Origin: Geopseudomonas sagittaria
GTDB lineage: Bacteria; Pseudomonadota; Gammaproteobacteria; Pseudomonadales; Pseudomonadaceae
Length of the DNA stretch: 64,000 nucleotides
Assembly (NCBI RefSeq): GCF_900115715.1
Contig: NZ_FOXM01000003.1
Location: 124,001 to 188,000 of the forward strand
Direction: 5' to 3'
A program made the translations under genes and the position numbers. Positions within the stretch are counted from its first letter, which is position 1. Every line of letters begins with the position of its first letter. The notes under the pieces were generated by a model. The model did not search any database. It was given only the letters and a program-made list of their open reading frames with translations, and was not told where the DNA came from. Shown here one piece after another: positions 673 through 39,550 of the stretch.

Positions 673-684
673 CCCAAGCCCCCC

Positions 685-3224: not shown

Positions 3225-3239
3225 GGGTCCCTCCCCTTC

Positions 3240-5078: not shown

Positions 5079-5981
5079 TCACTTCGCCGGCGCGTTGAAG
5101 CCCACCCCGAAGTCATGCCCCCACACACTCACCTCGCTGGCCTCGTAGACGCTGTGCCGCGTCCAGTCGAGGACCAGGCCGCCGAAGCCGTACTCGATGG
5201 CGAAGCCCGAGGGGGTGTCCATGTAGAAGGAGGTCATGCGGTCGTTGACGTGCTGGCCGAGGGTGGCCATCAGCTTCACACCCGCGCGCTGCATGCGGTC
5301 GTGGGCGCGGCCGACCTCCACCAGGTTGTCCACCTCCACCATCAGGTGCACGCAGCCACTGGGCACCGGGCCGCCGAACAGCGCCAGGCTGTGGTGGCGG
5401 CCGTTGTTGCAATGCAGGAAGTAGATCGGGATCGCCGGGGCGTCCGGCGCCGGCTGGAAGCGGTGGATGTCGGACAGGCCGAAGCCCATGACATCGCGCA
5501 GGAACGCCCAGGTCTCCGCGAAGTTCTCTGCCGGCAGCACGGTATGGCCCATGCCCAGCTCGCCGGTGACGAAGCCCGGCACGCCGGCCGGCGAGACGAA
5601 GCGGCGAAAGTCCGAGCACACACCCCACACCAGCTCGTGCAGGTTGCCGGAAGGGTCGCGCAGGCTGGCCAGCCCGTTGACCCGGCGCACCGCGCACAGC
5701 TCGGCGCAGCCGCGCTCGAACGGCACCCCGGCGCGCTCCAGTTCCGCGCAGGCCTGCTCGAAGGCCTCCTCGCCGGCCAGCTCCCAGCCGCTGGCCACGT
5801 AGCGGTCGGCCGGCCCGCCCGACACGAACAGGCGGAACGGCCGCTCGTCCATCTTGATATAGAGGTCGCCCAGCAGCCCCTCCTCCACCATCATGCCCAG
5901 CACGTCCTCGGCCTGCCGGCGCCAGGCGCCCAGGTCGCGGCTCGACGCCACCACGTAGGCCAGTCCACGAATGTCCATCAT
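5079..5981 (-). CDS. Extradiol ring-cleavage dioxygenase (two-domain VOC, BphC/HsaC type), copy 1
   Basis: A 300-residue type I extradiol dioxygenase built of two vicinal-oxygen-chelate domains. The iron ligands are visible as H146 (GMGHTVLP), H212 (GCVHLMVEV) and E263 (FAIEYGFGG); second-sphere residues H196/H197 (GRHHS), H244 and Y253 also fit BphC/HsaC. It should cleave a substituted catechol next to the hydroxyls with O2. The start has GAGGAG upstream. It lies downstream of the Rieske oxygenase, separated by a REP pair. A second copy lies at 50839-51738. The residues around the substrate pocket differ between the copies, so they may act on different catechols. Confidence 0.92.
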   Translation of the reverse strand: MMDIRGLAYVVASSRDLGAWRRQAEDVLGMMVEEGLLGDLYIKMDERPFRLFVSGGPADRYVASGWELAGEEAFEQACAELERAGVPFERGCAELCAVRRVNGLASLRDPSGNLHELVWGVCSDFRRFVSPAGVPGFVTGELGMGHTVLPAENFAETWAFLRDVMGFGLSDIHRFQPAPDAPAIPIYFLHCNNGRHHSLALFGGPVPSGCVHLMVEVDNLVEVGRAHDRMQRAGVKLMATLGQHVNDRMTSFYMDTPSGFAIEYGFGGLVLDWTRHSVYEASEVSVWGHDFGVGFNAPAK

Positions 5982-6038
5982 CGGTTCTCCTCGTCGCGGC
6001 GCCGGGCGGGGGCACCATGGCGGCGCATGAACACCCCC

Positions 6039-6133
6039 GTAGGGGCGAATTCATTCGCCAAGCAGGCCATCGGCCTGCCCTTGGCAGCATTGGGGGCCGC
6101 GCTGCGGCCCATGGCGAATGAATTCGCCCCCAC
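6039..6133. repeat. REP-like inverted repeat pair 1
   Basis: The palindromic unit GTAGGGGCGAATTCATTCGCC (6039-6059, 21 bases with GAATTC in the centre) occurs again inverted at 6113-6133. The spacer is GC-rich. The same unit occurs as inverted pairs at 22737-22799 and 23651-23711. It occupies the 180-bp gap between the Rieske and extradiol genes, and could form a stem that affects mRNA processing or stability. Confidence 0.9.
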
Positions 6134-6161
6134 AGAAGAGCCCGGCGCACGCCTTGGCTGA

Positions 6162-7238
6162 TCAGCCTCTCAGGTGGCGGATTTCCGGCTTCACGCCGAC
6201 GTAGTCCATGTCGATCTCGTGCTCGTAGCGGCGGGTCGACTCCTCGGACGCCTCGTTGATCGGCTGGAAGAACTGGTCGTACCACTTGCGCGCGTGGTAG
6301 ATCGGCCCGTCGCTCTCGCACAGCATCGGGTTGCCGATGCGCACCTTGTTGTCCCAGATGGCCACGTCGGTGCCCAGGGCGACGCACTGCAGCTCGGTCC
6401 ACTCGGCGATCAGCTGCTGGTTCTCCGCCTTGCTCAGCCCCGGGATGTTCTTGGTGGCCACGCCGAAGTGCAGGGTGAAGCTGTTGTGGTCGATGGCCGT
6501 GTTGCCGACGATGTAGATGGTCTCCATGTAGTGGCCCTTGTACGGCCCCTTCAACGACACCAGCAGCACGCCCGGCCCGTAGTAGGTGGCGTAGGTGATC
6601 ACCGCCTCGCCCGCGCTCATGATCCGCGAGCCGGAGATCTGCACCTGGGTGGCCTTGTGGCCCTCGAACAGATTGGCGAAGAACAGCGACGGCGACTGGT
6701 GCGTCTCGTCGAAGTGCCCCATGTCGACGATGTTGTCCACCAGCTCGCGACTGTTGGCGTTGATCACCCACTCCGCCCAGTGCATCTGGCTGTACTCCGG
6801 CGAATACAGCTCCTCCAGGCGCGGGATCTCCTGGCCTTCGAGCGGCGGGTTGCCGTCCGGGTCGTGCCAGATGAACAGCGCCTCGTTCAGCTCGGCGGTG
6901 GCCCAGCGGCCCACCCGCGCCTTCGGCGGCACGCGCTTGCAGTAGGGAATGCTCGCCGCCTTGCCCTCGCGGTCGAACTGCCAGCCGTGGAACGGGCAGA
7001 CCACGTTGTCGTTCTCCAGGCGACCGTGGCTGAGGTCGCCGCCCATGTGCGGGCACCAGGCGTCGAGCACCTGCAGCGCGCCGTCGGAGGTCTGGAACAC
7101 CACCAGGCGGTAGCCGAAGGCGTTCACCGTGTGCGGCTTGCCGTCCTTGTACTTGAGGGCCGAGCCCAGGCAGTGCCAGCCGCGGGCGTAACGCTCGGGG
7201 ATCGGGTCGGCGATGATCTTTGCGCGATTCATGGACAT
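6162..7238 (-). CDS. Rieske non-haem iron oxygenase, KshA-like (3-ketosteroid 9-alpha-hydroxylase family)
   Basis: 358 residues. The N-terminal Rieske domain carries C62-x-H64 and C81-x2-H84 (CPHMGGDLSHG, CPFHGW). The catalytic domain has the iron motif DNIVDMGHFDETH with H175 and H180. The RYARGWHCLG opening, the KDGKPHTVNAFG segment, the CPHMGGDLS box and the IPYCKRVPP segment follow the layout of KshA oxygenases more closely than ring-hydroxylating dioxygenase alpha subunits; no beta subunit is adjacent. A partner reductase of KshB type is encoded at 13491-14519. GGAGAC precedes the ATG at 7238. The exact substrate is not shown; any fused-ring or substituted cyclic ketone is possible. Confidence 0.86.
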   Translation of the reverse strand: MSMNRAKIIADPIPERYARGWHCLGSALKYKDGKPHTVNAFGYRLVVFQTSDGALQVLDAWCPHMGGDLSHGRLENDNVVCPFHGWQFDREGKAASIPYCKRVPPKARVGRWATAELNEALFIWHDPDGNPPLEGQEIPRLEELYSPEYSQMHWAEWVINANSRELVDNIVDMGHFDETHQSPSLFFANLFEGHKATQVQISGSRIMSAGEAVITYATYYGPGVLLVSLKGPYKGHYMETIYIVGNTAIDHNSFTLHFGVATKNIPGLSKAENQQLIAEWTELQCVALGTDVAIWDNKVRIGNPMLCESDGPIYHARKWYDQFFQPINEASEESTRRYEHEIDMDYVGVKPEIRHLRG

Positions 7239-7255
7239 GGTCGGGTCTCCAGGGC

Positions 7256-8443
7256 TCAGAGGAAGCTGTCGGTGGTGGTCTGGTCGGTCAGGGCGATGAA
7301 GCCGAAGGCGCGGCCGAACAGGTCGACGTTATTGGCGATGTGCGCGCGGCCGGTGAACACGTCGAGGAAGATCCGCGTCAGCGGATTGCTGCGGTAGGTG
7401 CCGGTGGCGCCGCAGCAGCGCAGCAGCTCGTTGATGTGGTGGGCGCACTCGTTGGCCACCTGGGCGAGCTGGTAGCGCTGGCGCAGCCGCTCGTTGACCG
7501 GCGCCGCTTCGCCGCGCTCGGCCCAGGCCATCTGCACCTCGTAGTGGCGCTTGCGGTTCTCCACCATCTGCTCGTGGGCCACCACCGCGCGGGCGTAGGC
7601 CAGCTGCGCGTTGGGGTCGTCCACCGTGCGCATGCCGACGTTCTTGCTGATGCCCTGCTGGGCGTAGTCCTTGAAGTGCTGGATGGCCGCCGCCAGGCCG
7701 CCTAGGCAGGCGTTGGACACCGCGGGGATGAACATCTGGGCGAACGGCACCCGGTACAGCGGCGCGCTGTTCAGCTCGCGGCCGGGGTTGGCCGCGTCGT
7801 CGTGCTGCTGGGTGGCGTGGGTACGGTGCAGCGGCACGAAGGCGTCCTCGACCACGATGTCGTGGCTGCCGGTGCCGCGCAGGCCGATCACCTCCCAATT
7901 GCGCTCGATGCGGAAATCGCTCTGCGGCAGCAGGAAGGTGCGGTAGCTGTTGCCCTTGCCGACGCCCGGCGTCAGGTTGCCGCCGAGGAACACCCAGTCG
8001 CAGTGCTCGCAGCCGGTCGAGAAGCCCCAGCGCCCGCTGATGCGGTAGCCGCCCTCCACTTCCGTGACCCTGGCCACCGGCATGTAGGTCGAGGCGACCA
8101 GCGTCGAGGCGTCCTCGCCCCACACCTCCTGCTGCGCCTGCTCGGGGAACAGCGCCAGCTGCCACGGATGCACCGCCACCACGCCGTACATCCAGGCGGT
8201 GGACATGCAGCCCTCGGCCAGCGTCTGCTGGATCTCGGCGAACACCTTGGGCCCGAACTCGAAGCCGCCGTGACGTTTCGGCTGCATGACGCGGAACAGC
8301 TGCGCCTCCTGCAGCGCGGCGATCACGTCGTCGGCCACCTTCAGCTCGGCCTCGGCCTGCGCGGCACGCTCGGCTAGCAGCGGCACCAGTGCCCGGGCGC
8401 GGGCCACCAGCTCCTCGGGGGAAATTCTTGTTGTTTGCTCCAT
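7256..8443 (-). CDS. Flavin-dependent monooxygenase, oxygenase component (HsaA/HpaH C2 type), copy 1
   Basis: 395 residues with the acyl-CoA dehydrogenase fold, used in this branch for reduced-flavin-dependent hydroxylation. Family landmarks: LAEGCMSTAWMYGVVAVHPW (about 70-90), YRISGRWGFSTGCEH, GLRGTGSHDIVVEDAFVP, and the C-terminal GRAHIANNVD segment. It would ortho-hydroxylate a phenol to a catechol using FMNH2/FADH2 from a separate reductase (21752 or 34422). The ATG at 8443 is preferred over 8455 because GGTGAG lies just upstream; this is not certain. Copy 2 (18762-19949) is a close paralogue by eye; copy 3 (48634-49854) is more distant. It is the first gene of the leftward block that contains the Rieske and extradiol enzymes. 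Confidence 0.88.
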   Translation of the reverse strand: MEQTTRISPEELVARARALVPLLAERAAQAEAELKVADDVIAALQEAQLFRVMQPKRHGGFEFGPKVFAEIQQTLAEGCMSTAWMYGVVAVHPWQLALFPEQAQQEVWGEDASTLVASTYMPVARVTEVEGGYRISGRWGFSTGCEHCDWVFLGGNLTPGVGKGNSYRTFLLPQSDFRIERNWEVIGLRGTGSHDIVVEDAFVPLHRTHATQQHDDAANPGRELNSAPLYRVPFAQMFIPAVSNACLGGLAAAIQHFKDYAQQGISKNVGMRTVDDPNAQLAYARAVVAHEQMVENRKRHYEVQMAWAERGEAAPVNERLRQRYQLAQVANECAHHINELLRCCGATGTYRSNPLTRIFLDVFTGRAHIANNVDLFGRAFGFIALTDQTTTDSFL

Positions 8444-8925
8444 CGACTCACCCATGGTCGTGCGGGAAGAAGTCGCGGGCCGCCTGACTCGGGGCGGCCC
8501 GCCCTGTGTGATACGGGATGGATTTTTGGTCGGGGGGTGGGGGGCGACATCATCCGTATGGAGTAGCCGCGCGGGTAGTGGGGGTTTTGTTGATCTGGAG
8601 CAAGGAATGGGGTGTTGTAGGGGAGAGTTGGATGGGAGTCAGGGTCTGCGGTTGGCTGGGTGTTGTGAAAGCGGGTCTTGGTTGTTTTTCATCTGGACCC
8701 CGCGCTAATCTCAACGCCTGCTCGAATGCCGCATGCAAAGGGAGTTGCCGTCTTGGTTCTTAACCGCCTACCAGCCCCACCTCCTTCGCGCAGCTCGCAT
8801 TCCAGAGCTGTTTAATGCGTTCACCCTGAAACTTTATCCACTAAACCATGCCAAGGGGGGGGGGCATGCGCCACCTGGTATCTATTTTTATTAGAAGCCG
8901 CCACAAACAACTTTAGGGGACCCAC
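8444..8925. other. Non-coding stretch upstream of two divergent genes
   Basis: About 480 bp between the leftward monooxygenase and the rightward HEPN-type gene. It must hold both promoters, but I find no convincing sigma-70 or sigma-54 elements. It changes from GC-rich (8450-8700) to AT-richer (from about 8790), and it contains a run of ten G (8855-8864) bounded by CATGCC and GCATGC. I see no RNA gene or credible coding frame. Confidence 0.6.
8855..8864. repeat. Homopolymeric G tract (10 G)
   Basis: Ten consecutive G, about 60 bp before the proposed TTG start of the HEPN-type gene and flanked by the partial inverted repeat CATGCC / GGCATG. Tracts of this length are prone to slippage; the position fits a promoter-spacing effect, which is inference only. 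Confidence 0.7.
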
Positions 8926-10245
8926 TTGAAAACCGAATACCTAATACTAGTTCCTGGTGGCGATTCCTTCTGTAGCAGCAAGAAGGCATTCGTTGATTTT
9001 CTGAAGATCGATGCATTAATAACCATATCTGGCCAAAAATTATCGTACCGCCGATCCGCCAAAGCCAGAGATCTTGTTTCCGCGCGATTCCGAGTTGAAA
9101 CAGACAAGGTAAAAGACAAGGATGAAAGGTTTTTCTTACTAGTACTAGAATGCCAAAACAAAGATAGCATTGATGAGTTCTCAGAACTGTGCGAAAGAGT
9201 AAAATCCATTGCCGAGAGGATTTCTCCGGGCTCTACTGCAATCAACACCCTTTGGGATGGAGTTGGAAAAACATACGCTGAAAAGTCATACCCGGTGATC
9301 AATGAAGTTGAAAACCTAATGAGAAAGCTTATTGCAAAGTTCATGCTGATTAACGTTGGAATGAACTGGTCTAAGGATGCCATCAACCCAGAGCTATTTA
9401 AAAAAATAGAAAGCTACGAAGATGAAGATATCCACCTAAATGACCTCTACAAGCTCGACTTCATCCACCTCAAGCAGGTTCTTTTCGATAAAAAGCGCGA
9501 CATCAGCCTAGAAGAGCTAGATCGCATTCTCTCAAAGACCAACTTTTCTGATGAGGACAAAGACAAGATCACGAAGTACGCCCCCAGGTCCAACTGGGAA
9601 AAATACTTCTCAGCATTGCTCGATGAAAAAGACAAAGGCCTGGAAAAGAAATGGGAAATCCTCTACAAGCTAAGAAACAAAGTTGCACACAATCGCAATG
9701 TATCTAAAAGTGAATTCGATCAAATTGTCGGCCTGGCAAACGATATTAAAGATATAATCAGAAGAGCCACGGAAAAACTGGGCGAGATCAATCTCGACGA
9801 AGAGGATAGAGAGCTAATCATATATTCATACCAATCAGAATCGCCGGAGGCTATCGGATTTATTGCAGAAAAAGCTGTTGCCGAGTACTACTCTCGCCTA
9901 GGCTACAACATAACTCCGTCGCCAACGATGCGGGCGTTTGATTTTATAGCGAGCAACGATGGCGAAACTGTGGCGGTTGAGGTCAAATCAATTCGACCAA
10001 GAAGTTTTTACTCAATGCTTAGAATTGTTGCTGAGCGGCAACTCAAGCATTGGGTGTCCGAAAACAGTCTTGAGAAGCTCTCCAAAATCCATTTAGTGTG
10101 CGTATTGAGAGAGGATGGCGAGGTGCATACACTATCTCGCATCCGTCGCCACGCGGGAGATTTCTCCGAGGCATTTGGTGACTCTGTAGAAATTCGCCTT
10201 GGGAAAATAAATGATGAGTTCGTTTATTCACCAATGGAAATTTGA
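8926..10245 (+). CDS. HEPN-domain protein with C-terminal PD-(D/E)XK nuclease domain (putative defence protein)
   Basis: 439 residues, markedly AT-richer than its neighbours. A TTG start at 8926 is preceded by AGGGGA at good spacing. The middle part (about 130-290) ends in the HEPN RNase signature R-N-x-x-A-H (R250, H255, in LRNKVAHNRNVSKSEF). The C-terminal part (about 310-420) has E315, D339 (AFDFIAS), and E352-x-K354 (VAVEVKS), the pattern of a PD-(D/E)XK nuclease of the Mrr/HJC kind. The N-terminal 120 residues are not recognised. The pairing of an RNase-like and a DNase-like domain suggests an anti-phage or abortive-infection effector, but this is inferred from domains only. It is followed after 108 bp by another AT-rich gene on the same strand. 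Confidence 0.75.
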   Translation: MKTEYLILVPGGDSFCSSKKAFVDFLKIDALITISGQKLSYRRSAKARDLVSARFRVETDKVKDKDERFFLLVLECQNKDSIDEFSELCERVKSIAERISPGSTAINTLWDGVGKTYAEKSYPVINEVENLMRKLIAKFMLINVGMNWSKDAINPELFKKIESYEDEDIHLNDLYKLDFIHLKQVLFDKKRDISLEELDRILSKTNFSDEDKDKITKYAPRSNWEKYFSALLDEKDKGLEKKWEILYKLRNKVAHNRNVSKSEFDQIVGLANDIKDIIRRATEKLGEINLDEEDRELIIYSYQSESPEAIGFIAEKAVAEYYSRLGYNITPSPTMRAFDFIASNDGETVAVEVKSIRPRSFYSMLRIVAERQLKHWVSENSLEKLSKIHLVCVLREDGEVHTLSRIRRHAGDFSEAFGDSVEIRLGKINDEFVYSPMEI

Positions 10246-10353
10246 TTTTTAACTGATACATCTAGTTTTGCGGGAGCGACTTCTAATACTCGTCAAAAAT
10301 CTGCATTATTGAAATCCAAAAAAATTGCCACACCTGATCAACATGGAAACATT

Positions 10354-11070
10354 ATGGCACAAGACAACGCAGCATCCCGACTCCTTGATCTCCTTATCAA
10401 AGCTAAGAGCATCGACCCAAACACTGCGAGCATTCACGCATGGGAGCAGCTTCTCGGCGCAAAGAATAATCCGGCACTCCTACTCTCTAGAATGGGAAAA
10501 ATGATTGCTCTTCCAGAGCAGATTTCGACCACCTTAACCAACAGTACCGAAACAACTCCAGGTGTTGTTCAGCACATATCCAATCAACTTTACGCCGCAT
10601 TTACAACCCACAAATTTTCGGAAAAATGGGAGTTGTTCATCAACCGAATAGATACACACATGACGAACTACCTGGCATTAGCATCGACACTCCTTGAAAC
10701 GCAGATTAAAACTAAAAAACTTGATAAAGATGAGCTACAAGAATTACGAGAAGGCTTCGTCAAGCTGCTGGAGGAAGTCCGGTCATCCGACCTACCTCCT
10801 AGGCTAAAATCCTACGTCGTGCTTCAACTCCATGATCTTGTCTCTGTCCTTGACAACTACTTTATCACAGGCGCGGAGCCCATCTTGGAACGAATAGAAG
10901 CAACAATAGGCCATGCCTACATCGACAACGAGTACAAAGAATTCCTTAAGGACCACGAGTTGGGCAAGAGCCTTCTAGGCTGCCTTGGAGCAGCCGCCAA
11001 CCTCGTCACGGTTGCAGTAGGAATTCCACAGCTAACTCAAATCATTCAGTTGCTGCAACACGGTGGTTGA
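10354..11070 (+). CDS. Unknown protein with hydrophobic C-terminus, next to HEPN-nuclease gene
   Basis: 238 residues from the ATG at 10354, chosen because GGAAA lies 5 bases upstream; the frame is open further upstream without a good ribosome site. Mostly helical: charged helices at about 90-200 (LDKDELQELREGFVKLLEEV), then a C-terminal hydrophobic stretch, LLGCLGAAANLVTVAVGIPQ, that could be a membrane segment. I do not recognise the family. It shares strand and low GC with the preceding HEPN-type gene, so the two probably arrived together and may act together. Downstream it ends close to a palindromic intergenic repeat and the hipA remnant. Confidence 0.6.
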   Translation: MAQDNAASRLLDLLIKAKSIDPNTASIHAWEQLLGAKNNPALLLSRMGKMIALPEQISTTLTNSTETTPGVVQHISNQLYAAFTTHKFSEKWELFINRIDTHMTNYLALASTLLETQIKTKKLDKDELQELREGFVKLLEEVRSSDLPPRLKSYVVLQLHDLVSVLDNYFITGAEPILERIEATIGHAYIDNEYKEFLKDHELGKSLLGCLGAAANLVTVAVGIPQLTQIIQLLQHGG

Positions 11071-11397
11071 TCTCGCAAACTCAGTCGACGCTGCACTCGC
11101 CACGCTCGTTTGACGCGGATGAGCCTCAGGGATAGAACGCATCAAGTGCTTCGCCTCGGCAACACTGCAGCATCAAGAAGTACCCCTATTTTGTCACCTC
11201 GTAGCTGGCAATCCGCAGGGGAGGCCAGCCTCACGACACCTCCCCCACCGGATACCTCCACACCCCACAAGCCACCTCCGCCAGCACATCTCCCCTGGCC
11301 AGCAAGTAGGGTAGACAACGGCGCAGCCTTGTCTACCGATGCCCACGGTGGGTAATCGCTACGCGAGTTACCCACCCTACTGACTTATCAAAGCGGA
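11071..11397. other. Non-coding stretch at the right edge of the AT-rich insert
   Basis: GC-rich sequence without a credible gene between the unknown protein and the hipA remnant. Its right half is a long palindromic repeat (11306-11380). Small open frames here have no ribosome site and low-complexity products (runs of Pro and Thr). Confidence 0.6.
11306..11380. repeat. Compound palindromic intergenic repeat
   Basis: Begins GTAGGG and ends CCCTAC. Inside are two stems: GTAGACAA / TTGTCTAC (about 11311-11336) and GGTGGGTAA / TTACCCACC (about 11347-11376). It looks like one of the families of intergenic palindromes found in Pseudomonas genomes. It lies 17 bp beyond the stop of the truncated hipA. 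Confidence 0.8.
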
Positions 11398-11493
11398 TTA
11401 GCGGGCGTGATAACCAAAGCTCAGGCGACCATCCACCAGCGACAAGCTGCCGACCTGCTCGGCGAACAGCCAGACGGCGAGTTCATGCGCCAT
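11398..11493 (-). pseudogene. hipA: hipA remnant (31-codon N-terminal fragment)
   Basis: Reading leftward from the ATG at 11493, the frame gives MAHELAVWLFAEQVG, then SLSLVDGRLSFGY, the start of a HipA kinase, and stops at TAA (11400-11398) after 31 codons. The ATG lies inside the end of hipB, as in intact hipBA operons. The rest of the toxin (some 400 residues, including the kinase site) is absent; the sequence beyond is a palindromic repeat. The toxin is therefore lost while the antitoxin gene and its operators remain. Confidence 0.82.
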
Positions 11494-11737
11494 GACGAGT
11501 GGGCTCCGCTGGAGTCGGAGCATCCGCAAGTCCGTCCAATTGGACCCGACCACCCAGGGCATCGATCACGCGGAGCACCTGCTCCAGCCGCACCGAGGGC
11601 TTGCCTGCCTCCAGATCGACCACGAAGCGCACGCCCACCACGGCGGCCAGGGCCAGATCGGCTTGCGTCAGGCCCAGTTGCTTGCGTGCGGCTCGCAGGG
11701 CCGCGCCGAGCGCTTGTGTGGAGTCGATAGGGATCAT
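11483..11737 (-). CDS. hipB: HipB-type XRE antitoxin/repressor
   Basis: 84 residues from the ATG at 11737. It consists of a helix-turn-helix of the HipB/Y4mF kind: LGLTQADLALAAVVGVRFVV followed by DLEAGKPSVRLEQVLRVIDA. The C-terminal tail ends RHGA and overlaps the hipA remnant. The promoter region (11738-11870) has three TTCCCG-n2-CGGGAA-type palindromes, fitting autorepression. With hipA truncated, the protein could still act as a repressor, both of itself and of other genes with the same operator. One operator overlaps the end of the acyl-CoA synthetase gene, which reads in the same direction. Confidence 0.85.
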   Translation of the reverse strand: MIPIDSTQALGAALRAARKQLGLTQADLALAAVVGVRFVVDLEAGKPSVRLEQVLRVIDALGGRVQLDGLADAPTPAEPTRHGA

Positions 11738-11746
11738 GGCGTGCTC

Positions 11747-11774
11747 GAATAATTTCCCGTTCGGGAAATTATTC
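11747..11774. promoter_or_regulatory. HipB operator 1 (perfect inverted repeat)
   Basis: Two 13-base arms, GAATAATTTCCCG and CGGGAAATTATTC, with a TT spacer, ending 9 bp upstream of the hipB start codon. Position and symmetry fit an autorepression operator that also overlaps the core promoter or ribosome-site region. Confidence 0.8.
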
Positions 11775-11800
11775 GCCTGAAACCACACTGGCGCAAGCCA

Positions 11801-11820
11801 ATATTCCTGATCGGGAAAAT
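11801..11820. promoter_or_regulatory. HipB operator 2 (imperfect)
   Basis: ATTCCTGATCGGGAA keeps the TTCC-n6-GGAA core of operator 1 with one mismatch in an arm. It lies about 60 bp upstream of the hipB start. Confidence 0.6.
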
Positions 11821-11850
11821 TACGTGCACTCCGTCAGCTGTATGGGTGAA

Positions 11851-13473
11851 TTATTCCCGAACGGGAATCACCGTTCCCCGCAACTCCCCCTTCACCACCT
11901 TGTTCGACGCATTGACCGGCAGCGCGTCGAAGAAGCGCACCAGGCGCGGCACCTTGTAGTTGGCCATGCGCTGGCGGGACCAGGCGATCAGGCCGGGTTC
12001 GTCGAGCTGCTGGCCGGGGCGCAGCACCACGCAGGCGCAGCCGACCTCACCCATGCGCTCGTCGGGCACGCCGATCACCGCGACCTGGGCGATGGCCGGG
12101 TGTTCGAGCAGGCCGGCCTCGATCTCCGCCGGGTAGCAGTTGAAGCCGCCGACGATGAACATATCCTTGAGGCGGTCGGTGATGCGCAGGTAGCCGCGCT
12201 CATCCAGGGTGCCGACGTCGCCGGTGTGCAGCCAGCCGTCGGCATCGATGGTTTCGGCGGTGGCCTGCGGGTTCTCGAAGTAGCCCTGCATGACGTGGAA
12301 GCCGCGCAGGCACACCTCGCCCGCCTCGCCCGGCGGCAGCTCGCGGTTGCCTTCGTCGACGATGCGCACCTCGGTGCCGGGGAGCGCGCGGCCGCAGGTG
12401 GTGGCCACGGTTTCGGCGTCGTCGGCCGGGTCGCAGATGGTCGCCAGGCCGCCGCACTCGGTGAGGCCGTAGGCGGTGGTGACCACCGCGAAGCCCAGCT
12501 CGCGGCGCATGCGCTCGACCAGCACCGGCGGGATGGTGGCCGCGCCGGTGACGGCGATGCGCAGGCTGGACAGGTCGGTCTCGGCCAGCTTCGGGTGGGC
12601 GAGCATGGTCAGGTACAGGGTCGGCGGGCCGGGCAGCACGGTGATGCGGTCGCGTTCGATGCGCTGGAACACCGCCTCGGCGTCGAACACCGGGTGCGGC
12701 AGGATGGTCGCGCCGGCCAGCAGGCAGGTCAGCCAGCCGGCCTTGTAGCCGAAGGCGTGGAAGAACGGGTTGACGATCAGGTAGCGGTCGCCGGGGCGCA
12801 GGCCGATCACCTGCACGTACTCGGCGAAGGCGCGCAGGTTCTGGCCGTGGCCGCTCATCACGCCCTTGGGCTTGCCGGTGGTGCCGGAGGTGAACAGCAG
12901 GTCGGACAGATCGTCCGGGCGCACGGTCAGGGCGCGCGCCTGGGCCTCGTCCATGTCGACCGCCTCGCCGGCGGCGAGGAAGCCCTGCCAGCTCAGGTCG
13001 CCATGATCCGAGGGCGCCTCGCAGGGCAGCACCACCACGCGCTCCAGGCAGTCCGGGCGGTGCGCTTCGAGCATCGCCGGGTAGTCGACGCCGAGGAACT
13101 GGCCGACGCAGAACAGCAGGCGGGTGCCGCTGCGTTCGAGGATGTCGGCGGCCTCGTTGCCCTTCATGCGCGTGTTGATCGGCACCAGGGTGGCGCCGGC
13201 GCAGTGGATGCCCAGCGCGGCGAGAATCCAGTCGTAGCGGTTCGGCCCCCACACGGCGACGCGATCGCCGGGCTGGATGCCCTCGGCGAGTAGTGCGCGG
13301 CTCACCGCGAGCACCCGCTCGGGCAGCTCGGCGTAGTCGATGCGCACCTCGCCGTCGGCCAGGGCGCAGTGGCCGGCGTGCCGGCGTGCGGCGGCGAACA
13401 CCAGGGCGGGAATGCTCGCCGGCAGCAGGCTGTCGGCGGCGAACGGAACGGCGGAAATCGAAGAATCAGTCAT
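11851..13473 (-). CDS. Acyl-CoA synthetase (AMP-forming, FadD3-like)
   Basis: 540 residues of the ANL superfamily. Motifs: A3 [20 protein letters not shown]5 YGLTECGG, A7/A8 [14 protein letters not shown] with [20 protein letters not shown], and a C-terminal NKVVKGELR carrying the adenylation lysine. It activates a carboxylic acid to its CoA thioester with ATP. The last gene of the leftward block starting at 19949; its start is 17 bp from the reductase gene. In a steroid-like route such an enzyme would activate the acid left after ring opening, as FadD3 does, but a plain medium-chain ligase is also possible. Confidence 0.88.
11853..11868. promoter_or_regulatory. HipB operator 3, overlapping the acyl-CoA synthetase stop
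   Basis: ATTCCCGAACGGGAAT is a perfect 16-base palindrome with the same TTCCCG/CGGGAA arms as operator 1. It covers the last codons and stop of the synthetase gene. Confidence 0.75.
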
Positions 13474-13490
13474 TGCAGCCCCCAGGCCGG

Positions 13491-14519
13491 TCAATCGGGA
13501 AAGCGCACGCGCACGTGCGCGCTGGTGGCCACGGCCTGGCAGGCCAGGGTCCAGCCTTCGTCCAGCTCCTGCTGGTCGAGGGCCTCGTTGCGCAGCAGCT
13601 CGACCTCGCCCTGCTCCACCGTGCACATGCACGAGGCGCACGCGCCGACCAGGCAGGACTGCGGGGCACGCACCCCATTGCGGCGCATGGCGTCGAGCAG
13701 GGTTTCGCCGGGCTCGCAGTCGAGGGCGTGCTCGGCGCCGTCGAGGCTGACCTCCAGGCGCGCGGCCACCGCCGCCTCGCTGACCACCACTTCGCCCTGC
13801 TCGCCCTCGCCGGGCAGCGAGACGAAACGCTCGACGTGGACCTTGGCGGCCGGTACGTCGAGGTTGTGCAACGCGCTCACCGCGGCGTCCATGAACGGGC
13901 CGGGGCCGCAGATGAAGGCCTCGGCCTGCCTGAACGGCCGCGCCAGTTCGGCGAGCTGCTCGACGGCGGGGATGCCCTGCACCGAGTCCAGCCAGTGGAT
14001 CACCTGCAGGCGGCGCGGGTGGGCGGCGGCCAGGGCTTTCAGCTCGTCGCGGAAGATCACCGAGGCTTCGTCGCGGTTGGCGTAGATCAGCAGCACGCGG
14101 CCGGAACCGGTGTGCAGCACCGAACGGAGGATCGACAGCACCGGGGTGACCCCGCTGCCGCCGCCGAACAGCAGGAAGTCGCCGTCCAGGCTGCGCGGCA
14201 CGAACACCCCGGCCGGCGCCAGCACCTCGATGGCGTCGCCGGCCTTGGGCACGTCGCACAGCCAGTTGGAGGCGCGGCCGTCGCGCACGCGCTTGACGGT
14301 GACGCGCAGCGGCTCATCGAGCAGCGGCGTGCTGGACAGCGAGTAGCAGCGCGGCAGCCAGCTGCCGTCGTGGGGGATGCGCAGGGTGAGGAACTGCCCC
14401 GGCTTGTACTTGAACTGGCCGGCCAGCGCGGCCGGCACCTCGAACACCAGCGAGCGGGCGTCGGCGGTTTCCTCGATGACCTGCGCGACGCGCAGGGAGA
14501 TGTATTCGGGATTGTTCAT
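13491..14519 (-). CDS. Ferredoxin-NAD(P)H reductase of KshB/HmpX type with C-terminal 2Fe-2S domain
   Basis: 342 residues: FAD-binding barrel (RCYSLSSTP near 57-65), NAD-binding domain ([28 protein letters not shown]), and a C-terminal plant-type ferredoxin with the cluster motif C-x4-C-x2-C ([12 protein letters not shown]) and a later Cys near residue 327. This is the layout of KshB and phenylacetyl-CoA PaaE-like reductases. It is the natural electron donor for the KshA-like Rieske oxygenase (6162-7238), which has no reductase beside it. Start at 14519 is 2 bp from the SDR stop, so the genes are tightly coupled. Confidence 0.9.
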
Positions 14520-14521
14520 AG

Positions 14522-15295
14522 TCAGATACTCATGACGAACTGGCCGCTGTCGATGCGCAGTTCCATGCCGTTGATGGCGCGCGACTCGTCGCTGGCCAGG
14601 TACAGGGCGGCGGAAGCGACGTCCTCGGGCAGGCACATGCGGTTCATCGGGTCGCTGTCGATGGTGAACTGCGCCGGGTCGATGCCCGGCGGGTAGCTGG
14701 CGACGGTCATCGGCGTCAGCACGCCGTCGGGATGCAGCGAGTTGCAGCGGATGCGGTACCTCTGCCTGCGGCAGTGCGCCGCCACCGCGCGGTTGAGGGC
14801 GGCCACCGCACCCTTGGAGGCGCCGTAGGCCGCGTAGTCGTCGCGACCGGCCAGGGCGGCGATGGACGAGACGTTGATGATCGAGCCGCCGCCGCTCTCC
14901 TTCATCAGCGCGACGCCCATGCGGCAGCCGAGGAAGGCGCTGTCGGAGTTGACGCGCAGCAGCTTGTGCCAGTCGGCCAGGCTGCTCTCCTCGATGCTGC
15001 CCTTGAGCAGGATGCCGGCGTTGTTGACCAGCACGTCGAGACGGCCGTAGCGCTCGCGCACGCAAGCGGCGACCGCGTCCCAGCCGGCCTCGCTGCTGGC
15101 ATCGTGGCGGATGAAGCTGGCAGCGTCGCCCCGCTCCTCGTTCAGCTCGTCGGCCAGCGCCTGGCCGGCGTCGGCGTTGATGTCGGCGATCAGCACCCGG
15201 GCGCCCTCGTCCACCAGCGCCTGCACGATGGCGCGGCCGATGCCGCTGGCGCCGCCGGTGACCAGGGCGATCTTGTCCTGTACCCGTCCTGTCAT
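14522..15295 (-). CDS. Short-chain dehydrogenase/reductase
   Basis: 257-residue classical SDR: TGGASGIGRA cofactor loop (residues 14-23), NNAG (about 89-92), catalytic Ser in INVSSIAAL and Y-x3-K (YGASKGAVAAL). The Asp after strand 2 (LIADINAD) indicates NAD preference. It lies between two FAD dehydrogenases and the KshB-like reductase, suggesting oxidation of a ring hydroxyl to a ketone (hydroxysteroid-dehydrogenase-like), which is inference. Start at 15295; 14 bp follow the FAD gene. Confidence 0.9.
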   Translation of the reverse strand: MTGRVQDKIALVTGGASGIGRAIVQALVDEGARVLIADINADAGQALADELNEERGDAASFIRHDASSEAGWDAVAACVRERYGRLDVLVNNAGILLKGSIEESSLADWHKLLRVNSDSAFLGCRMGVALMKESGGGSIINVSSIAALAGRDDYAAYGASKGAVAALNRAVAAHCRRQRYRIRCNSLHPDGVLTPMTVASYPPGIDPAQFTIDSDPMNRMCLPEDVASAALYLASDESRAINGMELRIDSGQFVMSI

Positions 15296-15309
15296 GTTCG
15301 TCTCCTCGT

Positions 15310-17010
15310 TCAGGCACGCACGCCGAGAGGCGCGGCCTGGCTGGTGGTGGTGTGGCCGGCATGGGCCGCCGCTTCGCCGGCGCGGCGGCCAGAGAACACG
15401 CAGTCGGCCAGCGACAGGCCGCTGATGTAGAGGTGCGAGGGGATGCCGATGGCGGTGCGTCCGGCGGCGTACAGGCCGGGGATGGCCTGGCCGTGGCCGT
15501 CGAGCACCGCGCCGTTGTCCTCGTCGACCTTGAGGCCGCCGAGGGTCAGCGCGCCGAGCGGGAACACCGGGTTGCCCACCGAGATGTCGCAGGCGTAGAA
15601 CGGCCCCTGGTCGAGCACCTGGCGGCTGCTCTCCGACTTGCCGAAGGCGTCCGGCGCGGTTCCGCGGGCGGCGGCGTTGTAGGCGCGCAGCGACTCTTCG
15701 AGCAGCGCCGGCTGCATGCCGGTGACGCCCGCCAGCTCGCGCGCGGTGCGGCCCTTGCGCACCTTGAGGAGCATCAGCGCCAGCGCCGGCAGGCTCTGGA
15801 ACCACCAGTAGCCGCCGAACAGCGCCTGCTTGATGGCCTGGCGGCGCAGACGGGCGTCGAGTACCAGCCAGGCCTTGCCGCCCTGCTCCTCGCACAGCGG
15901 GTAGCCGAGGGTGCCGCCGTAGACTTCCTCGTTGACGAAGCGCTGCCCGGCGGTGTTGACCACGATGCCCTTCGGCCAGCACAGCGGCGGGTTGATGAAG
16001 CGCCACGGCGAGACCTGCTGCAGGCGGTCGCTGGCCGCGCCGGCGGTCAGGCCCAGGCGCAGGCCGCTGCCGTCGCAGCCGGTGGCGCCGACCTTGAAGT
16101 TGCGCCGGTACTTGGGCGCGTGCTCGCCGAGCAGCGCCCGGTTGAAGATGAAGCCGCCGGTGCTGAGGATCACCCCCTGGCGCGCCTGCACCAGGCGCGG
16201 TCGGGCGTGCTGCTGTTCGAGGCGCGCCAGCTTGCGGCGCAGGCCGTCGCAGTAGGCCGGGGCGAAGTTCTGCAGGCGCTCGGCACGCGCCGCCAGCTTG
16301 GCGTGCTCCCTGGCCGCCGGACTACCGGGCGGCAGGCACCAGAGTTCGGCGCCGATCACCCGTCCCTTGGAATCCAGCACCAGGCGCCGCGCCGCAGACT
16401 GGGTCTGGGCACGCACGCCGGCGCGCAGGCAGGCTTCCTGCAGCCGTGCATAGAGCACCGCGCCGCACTGGCCCTTGCCGACGGTGCGATGACCGCGCGG
16501 CGCCGGCGGCAGCGCGCCGCCATGCGAGGGCACTAGCTCGTTGCCCGAGTAGTAGAGGAAGTAGCCGTCCGGCGGATAGGAGGTCTTGCCGCCCGGCGGC
16601 ATGCTGTGTTCGTAGCGGGCGCCGTGGCCTTCCAGCCACTCCAGGTTGGCCACGCTGCTCTCGCAGAAGCGGCGCAGGGTGGCGTCGCCGATCACCCCCT
16701 GGGTCTCGTGCTTGAGGTAGTCGAACATCGCCTCGGGCGTGTCGGCGAAGCCGGCGTCGCGCTGCTGGCGGGTGCCGCCGCCGGCGTAGACCACCCCGCC
16801 GCTCTTGGCGCTGGCGCCGCCGCCGGTGAAGCGGTCGGCGACCAGCACGTCGGCGCCCTGGGCGCGGGCTTCCAGCGCCGCGCAGGCGCCGGCCGCGCCC
16901 CAGCCGATCACCAGCACGTCGCACTGCTCGGCCCACTGCACGCTGGCGGCGTCGGCCACCTGCAGCGGCAGCTGGATGTCGGTGCAGGTGGAAATCGGTT
17001 CGCTCTTCAT
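15310..17010 (-). CDS. FAD-dependent dehydrogenase of the 3-ketosteroid dehydrogenase / fumarate reductase family (possibly delta-4 type)
   Basis: 566 residues. The FAD motif VIGWGAAGACAALEARAQGA lies near residue 42; glycine-rich segments KSGGVVYAGGGT and LSTGGFIFN follow. The C-terminus SGLSLADCVFSGRRAG replaces the YPGxG tail of delta-1 dehydrogenases, a pattern I associate with delta-4 (TesI/Kst4D-like) or related enoate-forming enzymes. It sits 10 bp downstream of the KstD-type gene, matching the paired tesH-tesI arrangement of steroid degraders. The start at 17010 is preferred to 17037 because GGAGG precedes it. Substrate unproven. Confidence 0.8.
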   Translation of the reverse strand: MKSEPISTCTDIQLPLQVADAASVQWAEQCDVLVIGWGAAGACAALEARAQGADVLVADRFTGGGASAKSGGVVYAGGGTRQQRDAGFADTPEAMFDYLKHETQGVIGDATLRRFCESSVANLEWLEGHGARYEHSMPPGGKTSYPPDGYFLYYSGNELVPSHGGALPPAPRGHRTVGKGQCGAVLYARLQEACLRAGVRAQTQSAARRLVLDSKGRVIGAELWCLPPGSPAAREHAKLAARAERLQNFAPAYCDGLRRKLARLEQQHARPRLVQARQGVILSTGGFIFNRALLGEHAPKYRRNFKVGATGCDGSGLRLGLTAGAASDRLQQVSPWRFINPPLCWPKGIVVNTAGQRFVNEEVYGGTLGYPLCEEQGGKAWLVLDARLRRQAIKQALFGGYWWFQSLPALALMLLKVRKGRTARELAGVTGMQPALLEESLRAYNAAARGTAPDAFGKSESSRQVLDQGPFYACDISVGNPVFPLGALTLGGLKVDEDNGAVLDGHGQAIPGLYAAGRTAIGIPSHLYISGLSLADCVFSGRRAGEAAAHAGHTTTSQAAPLGVRA

Positions 17011-17020
17011 CCCGGCCTCC

Positions 17021-18727
17021 TCAGACGTTGCTAGCAAGGTGCCGGGCGGCGATGTAGCCGAAGGTCATCGCCGGACCGAGGGTGCCGCCGGCGCCGGGAT
17101 AGCTGGTGCCCATCACCGAGGCCGAGGTGTTGCCGATGGCGTACAGGCCGGGGATCGGCTGGCCGTTCTCGTGCAGCACCTGGGCGTTGGCGTTGGTCAG
17201 CAGGCCGCCCTTGGTGCCGATGTCGCCGGCGTCCAGACGCATGGCGTAGAACGGCCCCTTGGCGATCGGCGCCAGGCACGGGTTGGGCTTGACGTTGCTG
17301 TCGCCGTAGTAGCGGTCGAACACGTTGCCACCGCGGGCGAAGTCGCTGTCGACGCCGGTGCGGGCGAACTCGTTGACGCGCTTGACGGTGGCATCCAGGC
17401 CGGCAGGATCGACGCCGATCTGCCGGGCCAGTCCGTCGAGGCTGTCGGCTTTCCAGTACACGGTGTTCAGCCACTCCTTGCGCAGGCGGCTGTCGGGCGA
17501 CACCTGGGCCGGCATCAGCGGGCCCATGGCGTAGTTGAAGCGGTAGTGGCCGTCGAAGATCACCCAGGCCGGAATGCTCTTGCCGTCCTTCTGGTGCTCG
17601 CGATACATGGCGTCGACGAACTCCAGGTACGGCGCCGCCTCGTTGACGAAGCGTTTGCCCAGCCCGTTGACCACGATGGCGCCGGGGAAGGCGCGTTCGG
17701 CGAAGATGCCGCGCGGCTTCTCCTCGCCCGGCACCTTGATGGTCGGCGCCCACCAGGCCCAGTCGAGCAGGTCGGTGGCGGCGCCGATGGCCTGCGCGGC
17801 CTCCAGCGCGGCGCCGGTGTTGTTACCCGGCGGGGTGGCGCTCCAGCCGACCTGAGTCGGCTGCGGCAGATACTTCTCGCGCAGCGCCTGGTTCTGCTCG
17901 AAGCCGCCGCTGGCGAAGATCACCCCGCGACGCGCCTGCAGGGTCATCTTCTGGCCGCCCTGCACCACCTCGATACCGGTCACCCGGCCGTTCTCCACCA
18001 CCAGCTCGCGGAAGTCGGTGTTCAGCCACAGCGGCACGTTGCGGTCCATCAGCGAGCGGCGCAGCGCGGCGATCAACGAGGCGCCGAGGGCGGCGCGGCG
18101 GTCCATCTTGGTCTTGCGCCGCCACTTGAAGTCGAGCTTGTAGCGCAGCATCAGGCCGAGAATCATCAGCCGCCAGCCGAACTCGCGGGACATGGCCTTG
18201 TGCGCGTGGCGCGCGGTCCAGGCGATGCAGCCCATCAGCAGGGTGGTCGGCGACGGCTTGCGCATGTTGTCGTATTCGTCGCCGAGCAGGCTGGTGTCGA
18301 ACAGCTCGGGGTCCAGGCTGCGCCCGCCGGGCAGCGAGCCGGGCAGGTGCTGGTAGTAGTCGGGGTACTTCTCGGCCACCGCGTAGCGCACACGGCTGCG
18401 GGTCTCGAAGTAGTGGATCATCCGCGGCGCGTACTCGAGGTAGGCGCGCAGGCGCTCCTCGTCGATCTTGCCGTCGGTGGAGGCCTTCAGGTAGGTCAGC
18501 GCCTTGTCGAAGCTGTCGTTGCCACCCTTCTCGGCGAAGTAGTGGTTGTTGGGAATCCAGATGCCACCGCCGGAGATCGCCGAGGTGCCGCCGTACTTGT
18601 CGCTCTTCTCGACGACCAGTACGGAAAGCCCCTGGTCGGCGGCAACTACCGCCGCTGCCATCGCACCTGCCCCCGAGCCGACGACGATCACGTCGTAGGC
18701 GGACTGTGGCTGAACCTGTGTTGTCAT
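17021..18727 (-). CDS. FAD-dependent 3-ketosteroid delta-1-dehydrogenase family protein (KstD type)
   Basis: 568 residues. N-terminal FAD loop VVGSGAGAMAAAVVAADQGL; KYGGTSAISGGGIWIPNN; FASGGFEQN in the middle; C-terminal TSYPGAGGTLGPAMTFGY. Y543 and G547 in that tail correspond to the active-site Tyr and Gly (Y487/G491) of Rhodococcus KstD1. The family introduces a double bond next to a ring ketone and passes electrons to quinone. Two successive desaturations of a cyclohexanone ring would give a phenol, the substrate class for the HsaA-type monooxygenases encoded on either side. Steroid specificity is not proven. Confidence 0.85.
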   Translation of the reverse strand: MTTQVQPQSAYDVIVVGSGAGAMAAAVVAADQGLSVLVVEKSDKYGGTSAISGGGIWIPNNHYFAEKGGNDSFDKALTYLKASTDGKIDEERLRAYLEYAPRMIHYFETRSRVRYAVAEKYPDYYQHLPGSLPGGRSLDPELFDTSLLGDEYDNMRKPSPTTLLMGCIAWTARHAHKAMSREFGWRLMILGLMLRYKLDFKWRRKTKMDRRAALGASLIAALRRSLMDRNVPLWLNTDFRELVVENGRVTGIEVVQGGQKMTLQARRGVIFASGGFEQNQALREKYLPQPTQVGWSATPPGNNTGAALEAAQAIGAATDLLDWAWWAPTIKVPGEEKPRGIFAERAFPGAIVVNGLGKRFVNEAAPYLEFVDAMYREHQKDGKSIPAWVIFDGHYRFNYAMGPLMPAQVSPDSRLRKEWLNTVYWKADSLDGLARQIGVDPAGLDATVKRVNEFARTGVDSDFARGGNVFDRYYGDSNVKPNPCLAPIAKGPFYAMRLDAGDIGTKGGLLTNANAQVLHENGQPIPGLYAIGNTSASVMGTSYPGAGGTLGPAMTFGYIAARHLASNV

Positions 18728-18761
18728 TGTTGTCGTGTCCTGTGCCGTGGTCGCTGGGGGG

Positions 18762-19949
18762 TCAGACGTAGGGATCGGGGTTGGGCAGGCCGAGCTGCAC
18801 CGCGCCGTAGCTGCGTCCGTAGGCGGCGACGTTGTTGGAGATGTGCCCGCGCGCCTGGTGCAGGTCGCGGAAGGTGCGCGCCACCGGGTTGGTGTTGTAC
18901 AGGCCGGAGGCGGCCATCGAGCGCAGCAGGTCGCTGACTCGCTCGGCGCACACGTTGGTGACCTGGGCGGACTGGTAGCGGTACAGCAGGCGGGTCTCGG
19001 TATCGGGGATCTCGCCCTTCTCGGCCAGCGCCAGCATGTGCGCGAAGTTGCGCTCGAGGACCAGCTTGAAGGCGTCGACGGTGGTGATCGCCTCGGCCAC
19101 CGCGGTCTGCGCTACCGGGTCCTCGGCGGTCTTGGCGCCGTGCTTGCCGATGTGCTGCTTGGCGTTGTCGCTGAACTGGTTGATCGCACCCTGCAGGGCG
19201 CCGAGGCACGAGCTGGACACCGCGCGGGTGAACACCTGGGCGAAGGGCAGCGCGTAGATCGGGTTGGTGTTGACCTCGCGGCCCGGGGTGGCCGCCAGGC
19301 TGGCGTTGTTGGTGCGCTGCACGCGATGGGCGGGGACGAAGGCGTCCTCGATCACGATGTCGTGGCTGCCGGTGCCGCGCAGGCCGAGCACGTCCCAGTT
19401 CTTCTCGATGCGGTAGTCGCTGCGCGGCACCAGGAAGGTACCGTGCTCGGCCGGCTGGTCCTCGCCGGGCGGCAGGATGCCGCCGAGCAGGCCCCACTGG
19501 CAGTGCTCGCTGCCGCTGGAGAAGCCCCAGCGCCCGCTGATGCGGTAGCCGCCTTCCACCGGGGTGACCTTGGCCACCGGCATGTAGGTGGAGGAGATCA
19601 GCGTGCTGGTGTCCTCGCCCCACACGTCCTGCTGGGCCTCGACCGGATAGCGGGCCAGCTGCCAGGGGTGCACGCCCATCACGCCATAGATCCAGGCGGT
19701 GGACATGCAGCCTTCGGCGAGGGTCATCTGGATCTCGAAGAAGGTGCGCGGGTCGACCTCGTAGCCGTCCCACCGCTTCGGCTGCAGGGCGCGGAACAGG
19801 CCGGCCTCCTGCATCTCGCGGATGGTCTCGTCGGGCACCTTGCCCTCGCGGTCGGCCTGCTCGGCCCGCTCGCGCAGGGCAGGAACCAGGCGCCGGGCGC
19901 GAGCGATCAGCTCGATCTCTACCGCGGTTTTCTCTCGCATGACATGCAT
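18762..19949 (-). CDS. Flavin-dependent monooxygenase, oxygenase component (HsaA/HpaH C2 type), copy 2
   Basis: 395 residues, a close paralogue of the gene at 7256: LAEGCMSTAWIYGVMGVHPW, STYMPVAKVTPVEGGYRISG, GLRGTGSHDIVIEDAFVPAH. Reduced flavin must come from a partner reductase. GGAGGAG lies 6 bases before the ATG at 19949. It opens the leftward block that also encodes the two FAD dehydrogenases, an SDR, the KshB-like reductase and an acyl-CoA synthetase. Copies 1 and 2 probably arose by duplication and may take different phenols. Confidence 0.88.
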   Translation of the reverse strand: MHVMREKTAVEIELIARARRLVPALRERAEQADREGKVPDETIREMQEAGLFRALQPKRWDGYEVDPRTFFEIQMTLAEGCMSTAWIYGVMGVHPWQLARYPVEAQQDVWGEDTSTLISSTYMPVAKVTPVEGGYRISGRWGFSSGSEHCQWGLLGGILPPGEDQPAEHGTFLVPRSDYRIEKNWDVLGLRGTGSHDIVIEDAFVPAHRVQRTNNASLAATPGREVNTNPIYALPFAQVFTRAVSSSCLGALQGAINQFSDNAKQHIGKHGAKTAEDPVAQTAVAEAITTVDAFKLVLERNFAHMLALAEKGEIPDTETRLLYRYQSAQVTNVCAERVSDLLRSMAASGLYNTNPVARTFRDLHQARGHISNNVAAYGRSYGAVQLGLPNPDPYV

Positions 19950-24515: not shown

Positions 24516-24540
24516 CGCCCCCTTTTTCGAGAGCGAATCC

Positions 24541-25461: not shown

Positions 25462-25471
25462 GGAGCCGACC

Positions 25472-36722: not shown

Positions 36723-37631
<909 letters not shown>

Positions 37632-39539: not shown

Positions 39540-39550
39540 GGCGCGTCTCC

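Follow-up and report, generated by a model that had tools for sequence, protein, structure and literature searches.

The 64,000-nucleotide stretch of Geopseudomonas sagittaria DNA considered here (the window: bases 124001-188000 of the 396-kb contig NZ_FOXM01000003.1, or C30, in a genome of 4.6 Mb) would, with a probability of roughly 0.93, be part of a large aerobic 9,10-seco steroid-catabolism region of the Pseudomonas linyingensis/P. oryzagri group, in which a tes-like operon (19949-11851) stands together with a second oxygenase cassette (8455-685). Taken by itself the operon is canonical and ordinary. The cassette carries a second HsaA-KshA-HsaC triad, of which the KshA (KshA2) departs at steroid-pocket positions 238, 240, 257 and 301 from nearly every other KshA compared. 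Gene calling gave 49 genes in the window, and family searches covered 37 of them (Table 1).

Ring A of 3-ketosteroids would be desaturated by Kst4D2 and KstD2, after which KshA and the KshB-like reductase would hydroxylate C9, with the result that ring B opens and ring A aromatises. HsaA, with an HsaB-like reductase, would then form a catechol for cleavage by HsaC, HsaD and HsaEFG would complete the breakdown of the A-ring fragment, and the FadD3/ScdA-type ligase would pass the remaining HIP acid to ipd-type genes elsewhere on the contig. Sequence comparison makes steroids the likely substrates of these enzymes in the present strain, and it also guides what is said below about which steroids each triad may serve.

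A first-pass annotation of the same DNA had proposed a steroid-like or alicyclic ring-opening route, and the opening of steroid rings A and B is well borne out: family matches and catalytic residues point to it, and so do the gene order of the operon and its genomic surroundings. Every enzyme type that the annotation listed is present with a strong family match, the E-values of which exclude chance. Its KshA-like Rieske oxygenase (KshA2) matches three KshA sequences in the PDB at 286-315 bits (the next match being at 74 bits), and both of its HsaA-type monooxygenases have 2rfq as best solved relative (297 bits for HsaA1). The HsaC-type dioxygenase is present (best PDB match 2zi8, 228 bits), albeit just outside the interval 6162-19949 to which it had been assigned. 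The two flavin adenine dinucleotide (FAD) enzymes, which had been told apart by a Y543/G547 tail, do belong to different families. In the tailed KstD2, the counterparts of Y543 and G547 in the 4c3x chain are Y507 and G511, and those of Y124 and Y367 are Y139 and Y338, which we take to be the catalytic residues of R. erythropolis KstD1, i.e. the three tyrosines and one glycine of a KstD are all in place. The enzyme without the tail, Kst4D2, is Kst4D/TesI-like: its best solved relative is 4at0 ('3-ketosteroid-delta4-5alpha-dehydrogenase', 193 bits), and its Y364, Y528 and S530 align with Y339, Y486 and S488 of that chain, presumably the catalytic positions of Kst4D, which gives the Tyr, Tyr, Ser set of that family. 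A tRNA-Arg call by ARAGORN at 16828-16913 falls within the Kst4D2 gene and is most likely false; no Rfam match at gathering threshold was found anywhere in the window.

On the minus strand the operon reads HsaA1, KstD2, Kst4D2, short-chain dehydrogenase/reductase (SDR), KshB-like reductase and FadD3-family ligase. All six genes are contiguous in the four 20-kb loci of the genus that were read (L119-L122), with the SDR, probably a hydroxysteroid dehydrogenase, at the identical place in each; HsaA1 and KstD2 were found in 8/8 genus genomes. The reductase proposed earlier as KshB-like is present, but since its best NCBIfam model, PaaE (236 bits), falls below the cut-off of 421, the name leans on gene position too. 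The acyl-CoA synthetase of the first-pass annotation is a FadD3-family HIP-CoA ligase, a kind that initiates C/D-ring degradation (PMC8399759).

A published definition of a 9,10-seco cluster asks for at least six of the eight enzymes KstD, KshA, HsaA, HsaC, HsaD, HsaE, HsaF and HsaG, KshA and HsaC among them (PMC4810484); all eight types occur in the window, as recognised by other models than those of that paper, and C/D-ring genes of the ipdA/scdL1 kind are represented by an IpdA on the same contig. The IpdA (278 bits to 6co6) lies upstream of the window in a block at C30:44860-54705, 75-85 kb from KshA2, in which HsaC1 adjoins ipdA. The block also holds two acyl-CoA dehydrogenases, and a thiolase, an SDR and a pair of enoyl-CoA hydratases there exceed the cut-offs of general NCBIfam models. 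No NCBIfam model matched at E 1e-60 for IpdA, IpdB or IpdC, and the names IpdB, IpdC, FadA6, EchA20 and IpdF in this block are putative ones, given largely by position. Directly upstream of the window (C30:89963-120340) lie side-chain-type genes, comprising a CasG-like ligase (392 bits, below the cut-off of 750), a lipid-transfer-protein thiolase (688 bits, cut-off 469), acyl-CoA dehydrogenases, a ChsH2-like MaoC protein, two SnoaL-like proteins, an amidase and a flavoenzyme of the old yellow enzyme (OYE) type (mycofactocin OYE model 455 bits and BaiCD 445 bits, both below cut-off), which together would fit a bile-acid-type route. IpdA (one each) and the lipid-transfer-protein thiolase are both present in 8/8 genus genomes, the latter 10-20 kb from KshA2 in every one.

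It had been noted earlier that genes for C/D-ring and side-chain degradation were not seen, so that either the substrate was smaller or these genes lay elsewhere. The second alternative proved right, whereas the supposed absence of any hip gene did not stand, because the acyl-CoA synthetase in the set, being of the FadD3 family, is itself one. The first alternative, with a smaller ketone (alicyclic or bicyclic) as the compound whose ring is opened and a cyclohexanone desaturated to a phenol, is in our view very improbable. The relatives of KstD2 do include 4-oxocyclohexanecarboxylate desaturases (387 and 373 bits, all under cut-off) and biphenyl models give the hydrolase at 36723-37568 a higher score than steroid models do, but KstD2 scores far higher on its top NCBIfam models, which are ketosteroid dehydrogenases (590 and 583 bits, under cut-offs near 789), and this disfavours a plain cyclohexanone route; the KshA_C domain, the FadD3-family ligase within the operon, the tes-operon order, and the IpdA and side-chain-type genes on the contig all speak against it as well. 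Several points do weigh against the assignment to steroid catabolism: HsaA, HsaC, HsaD and KstD all score under their NCBIfam cut-offs (which, at a guess, were set on other, mostly actinobacterial, proteins), PaaE is the best model for the KshB-like protein, the hydrolase prefers BphD, and the sequence does not fix the reactions of the SDR and the aldehyde dehydrogenase, nor those of the HsaEFG duplicates. The latter form a second complete hydratase-aldehyde dehydrogenase-aldolase set at 38508-41376, 56-60% identical to the set at 23724-26503.

KshA2 has features expected of a KshA, namely the KshA_C domain, a Rieske CxH...CxxH motif (CPH...CPFH from residue 62) and a 2-His-1-Asp iron site, as H175, H180 and D291 align with the KshA iron ligands His181, His186 and Asp304 (PMC4064121). 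In M. tuberculosis KshA the predicted steroid-ring contacts are V176, Q204, Y232, M238, N240, N257, F301 and W308, which the same paper calls conserved among known KshAs. These positions were transferred via a Nocardia sequence, with the iron ligands as anchor points; at them, 8/8 genus members of KshA2 read I, Q, Y, L, V, V, L and W, i.e. Q, Y and W are kept and V176I, M238L, N240V, N257V and F301L are changed (the last four being L225, V227, V244 and L288 in its own numbering, where KshA1 has H, T, N and F). These changes are not decisive for KshA membership, because departures at 176, 238 and 240 are also seen in canonical KshAs of Proteobacteria, which mostly have H at 238 and T at 240. 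An F stands at position 301 in 18/18 actinobacterial, 8/8 KshA1 and 56/56 other proteobacterial rows, and position 257 is N in 18/18, 8/8 and 54/56, respectively, four named near-copies of the genus being left out of the counts. The two exceptions at 257 (Nevskiaceae L037 and L072) combine L238 and V257 with a retained F301, and therefore, among the 92 rows counted, only V240 and L301 were restricted to the clade of KshA2 and its relatives in the metagenome-assembled genome (MAG) SZAS-72. A T at 301 occurs in two other Pseudomonadaceae rows. Terms for these pocket residues were not found in PMC8228715.

In a tree of 88 KshA proteins (80 from named loci, being the best 80 of 253 ranked by similarity to KshA2 and thus an uneven sample, plus 8 of the 16 KshA rows from the eight genus genomes), KshA2 clusters with two SZAS-72 proteins (100/100), the branch of this clade being 0.80 changes per site long, and KshA1 groups with Crenobacter on a separate long branch (0.81). 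KshA2 is 97% identical to the KshAs of P. linyingensis, P. oryzagri, Pseudomonas sp. A-1 and 'Stutzerimonas stutzeri K1', which places the host in their group; these four named strains appear to be among the eight genus genomes, and the two sets are therefore not independent. The only strong KshA matches in SZAS-72, a MAG that is possibly incomplete, are the two of the KshA2 type (63 and 61%, the next being 30%), and one of them adjoins ipdA/ipdB-like genes, which is why the KshA2 type probably serves steroid degradation; the HsaC matches of this MAG are at 57% and, more weakly, 38%. The long branch and altered pocket could also mean that KshA2 is a Rieske oxygenase of other regiochemistry, recruited to a steroid region. 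We consider this unlikely, as the gene lies between HsaA2 and HsaC2, the next two 9,10-seco steps, in 8/8 genus genomes, and as SZAS-72 has the context just described. The predicted reaction of KshA2 is C9 hydroxylation of a 3-ketosteroid.

Both KshAs, both HsaCs and both HsaAs are present in 8/8 genus genomes, including one of 3.2 Mb, and the low pairwise dN/dS (non-synonymous to synonymous substitution) medians of 0.14-0.23 indicate that both triads are under purifying selection. Over 28 pairs each, the medians are 0.20, 0.14 and 0.15 for KshA2, HsaC2 and HsaA2, and 0.23, 0.14 and 0.23 for KshA1, HsaC1 and HsaA1, with 0.30 for KstD2 and 0.19 for IpdA. On the contig, the KshA pair is 43.6% identical over 330 residues, the HsaC pair 61.6%, the HsaA pair 56.3%, the KstD pair 54.6% and the Kst4D pair 45.9%; a third HsaA, in a separate cluster, is at 35-36%.

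It is possible, though somewhat short of an even chance, that the second triad is merely redundant, acting on the same substrate as the first and retained for gene dosage or on account of the scattered arrangement of the first set. The identities within the HsaC and HsaA pairs would be in line with this, as would the trees, in which HsaA1, HsaA2 and the Crenobacter HsaA form one clade (100/98). Within it HsaA2 pairs with Crenobacter (100/99), as KshA1 does in its own tree, and KshA2 pairs with SZAS-72 and HsaC2 has no resolved partner; with this mixed ancestry, inheritance of the second triad as a single co-evolved module was rejected. The 287 kb of the own genome that were compared (C30 1-227 kb and C34 240-300 kb) contained a single KshB-like gene, and one reductase may therefore serve both KshA1 and KshA2. 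KshA1 moreover has its own DUF1329, DUF1302 and LuxR paralogues within ~8 kb, and the same layout around a KshA recurs in the named Pseudomonas loci L067, L079, L080 and L085, from which it follows that it is common and does not single out the second triad. Against redundancy stand the retention of both triads in 8/8 genomes (even in that of 3.2 Mb), the finding of a second close KstD in only 3/8, and the four changed pocket positions. A different substrate for KshA2 is, by these comparisons, a tentative proposition of about the same standing.

A second case bears on this question. Among 398 sampled Pseudomonadaceae genomes, KshA (at E 1e-60) occurs in 69, and 13 genomes outside the genus have more than one. 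All 14 lower-scoring copies from these 13 were surveyed together with six other KshAs (20 rows), leaving out the higher-scoring copies of 10 of the 13; 17 of the 20 rows are canonical at 257 and 301. The proposal that second KshA copies are pocket variants throughout was dropped, given that 11 of the 14 extra copies are canonical and three (in G257, G279 and G371) are variant, with L, I and L at 257 and T, F and T at 301, respectively. In G371 and G257 the variant KshA is part of a compact Kst4D-KshA-HsaA-HsaC-KshB-hydrolase cassette (L203, L204), and the first KshA copy is 70-71% identical to KshA1; that of G279 has no such cassette neighbours within 20 kb. The G371/G257 variants are sister to actinobacterial KshAs (100/100), and a single origin of these two, KshA2 and the SZAS-72 proteins is weakly rejected (approximately unbiased test, p-AU 0.043, an optimistic value because the group was chosen once the first tree was known). 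It thus seems that an extra triad with an altered KshA pocket was gained on at least two occasions, the second case resting on two genomes. In plasmid records, matches to KshA2 reached no more than 48.3% identity (16 records at E 1e-40), and the best KstD2 match was 68.5%, in Vibrio alfacsensis (36 records).

Following these results, it may be that steroid-degrading Pseudomonadaceae have at least twice, from different sources, gained a second complete triad with a remodelled, more hydrophobic KshA pocket, and that HsaA2-KshA2-HsaC2 here opens steroid nuclei that are poorly handled by the KshA1 set, e.g. hydroxylated or side-chain-bearing bile-acid intermediates; we hold this to be conceivable rather than probable. 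Two KshA lineages kept in one cell in 8/8 genomes offer a clean natural comparison, and with four pocket substitutions in an otherwise intact site the substrate choice of proteobacterial KshA becomes directly testable. The second triad may also yield a 9alpha-hydroxylase for steroids that are poor substrates of present enzymes.

Table 1. Features of the window, with position, strand and the match or property by which each is recognised
Feature	Position	Strand	Evidence
HsaA1/TesA2-type 9,10-seco-steroid A-ring hydroxylase, oxygenase	18762..19949	-	HsaA model 396 bits, cut-off 450
KstD2/TesH-type 3-ketosteroid delta1-dehydrogenase, 568 aa	17021..18727	-	7p18 '3-oxosteroid 1-dehydrogenase' 766 bits
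Kst4D2/TesI-type 3-ketosteroid delta4(5alpha)-dehydrogenase	15310..17010	-	PRK07121-type FAD-binding family 744 bits, cut-off 466
SDR between Kst4D2 and KshB	14522..15295	-	SDR family models
KshB-like reductase, ORF17 position, flavin and C-terminal plant-type ferredoxin	13491..14519	-	PDB matches to reductases and ferredoxins
FadD3/ScdA/StdA3-type HIP-CoA ligase, first C/D-ring step	11851..13473	-	NCBIfam FadD3 family 768 bits, cut-off 657
Low-GC variable insert between operon and second cassette	8604..11400		GC 0.41-0.51 over 8700-11100; contents vary in relatives
HsaA2, second seco-steroid hydroxylase	7256..8455	-	HsaA model 346 bits, cut-off 450; best PDB 2rfq
KshA2, divergent 3-ketosteroid 9alpha-hydroxylase oxygenase	6162..7238	-	Pfam KshA_C (PF19298) 217 bits, cut-off 23.3
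HsaC2/TesB-type extradiol dioxygenase	5079..5981	-	HsaC model 275 bits, cut-off 450
DUF1302 protein, second cassette	3240..4901	-	PF06980 408 bits
DUF1329 protein, second cassette	1848..3224	-	PF07044 375 bits
LuxR-type regulator	685..1848	-	HTH (helix-turn-helix) matches at Pfam cut-off: GerE 23.6 vs 23.5
HsaB-like flavin reductase	21752..22732	+	p-hydroxyphenylacetate hydroxylase reductase 216, FerA 154, HsaB 127 bits, each under its cut-off
HsaE-F-G-type hydratase, aldehyde dehydrogenase, aldolase	23724..26503	+	Pfam
HsaD/BphD-type meta-cleavage-product hydrolase	36723..37568	-	BphD 415 bits (cut-off 462), HsaD 268 bits (cut-off 400)

The operon and the second cassette would be two transcription units. 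The cassette, from HsaA2, KshA2 and HsaC2 through the DUF1302, DUF1329 and LuxR-type genes (680-8603), can be aligned as DNA across the four named strains, over its full length in L023 and piecewise in the three others. Its LuxR-type protein (39.7% identical to the paralogue near KshA1) is its probable regulator, and its DUF1302 protein presumably has an outer-membrane role. The insert between the two units looks like an insertion hotspot. In relatives the site carries, with names given by eye, an insertion sequence (IS)-like transposase and a HipA-like gene (L119), a DUF262-looking protein (L120/L121/L025/L028), Trk-like genes (L122/L024) or two large proteins (L023), and here 8926-10245 has a weak PADLOC match (PDC-M34B, E 7.5e-7) and no Pfam match.

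Elsewhere in the window, a sulfatase at 31464-33119 (PF00884), with a 48% paralogue at C30:39966-41684, possibly hydrolyses steroid sulfate esters. The stretch at 48634-53960 holds the third HsaA-like oxygenase, a hydrolase, a BphC-like dioxygenase and a MobR-like sigma54 regulator next to an MMPL/RND protein and DUF1302/DUF1329 paralogues, and is read as a meta-cleavage cluster of its own, of a phenol- or biphenyl-like type, whose HsaA and BphC co-occur in 4/8 genus genomes (36-38% identity rows). A helix-turn-helix and HipA pair at 58629-60157 forms a HipBA-type toxin-antitoxin, and the 690-aa open reading frame at 60633-62705, which is outside the gene-caller set, has a weak zinc-ribbon match below cut-off and no PADLOC hit; the GC content is lower at this end of the window (0.598). 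On contig C34 (268698-281396), three more KstD-family genes, 38-42% identical to KstD2, lie near what by eye are shikimate- and transporter-like genes, and relatives at similar identity occur in 6/8 genus genomes, the own included.

The testosterone/cholate pathway is described as patchy in Proteobacteria (PMC4810484). In the open-access library searched, no steroid-degradation paper was found for Pseudomonas linyingensis or Geopseudomonas (a single paper has both P. linyingensis and steroid, each mentioned once), and the operon extends the known pathway to this group. Its enzymes and their order equal those of the C. testosteroni tes cluster by locus tag (PMC8399759, Table 1), where CNB-2 has TesA2 (RS06920), TesH (06925), TesI (06930), ORF17/KshB (06935) and ScdA (06940), provided that locus tags reflect gene order in C. 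testosteroni and Chol1, as we would expect. The operon here differs in one inserted SDR, in an HsaB-like gene that is not adjacent, and in the second HsaA-KshA-HsaC cassette, since for CNB-2 that table lists one KshA, one HsaA and one TesB. The order is also close to that of the bile-acid cluster of P. stutzeri Chol1 (HsaA, KstD, KshB and StdA3 being RS11025, 11030, 11040 and 11045), although its Kst4D tag is distant (RS11110) and one KshA is listed there (PMC8399759). Multiple KshAs are known from other organisms: Sphingobium Chol11 has five homologues (PMC8399759), Rhodococcus isoenzymes differ in substrate preference (PMC4064121), and a published KshA phylogeny distinguishes five clusters (PMC5790920). 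R. jostii RHA1 resembles the present case in having a dedicated second oxygenase set (the cholate-specific KshA3, HsaA3 and HsaC3) beside its sterol set (PMC8399759), and it requires KshA3 for cholate (PMC8399759, PMC4064121); it differs in belonging to another phylum, and KshA2 departs from pocket residues that PMC4064121 calls conserved. The likeness to the L203/L204 cassettes lies in the second triad, the pocket-variant KshA and the canonical KshA also in the genome, and the difference in the ancestry of that variant, which is sister to actinobacterial KshAs and not to KshA2.

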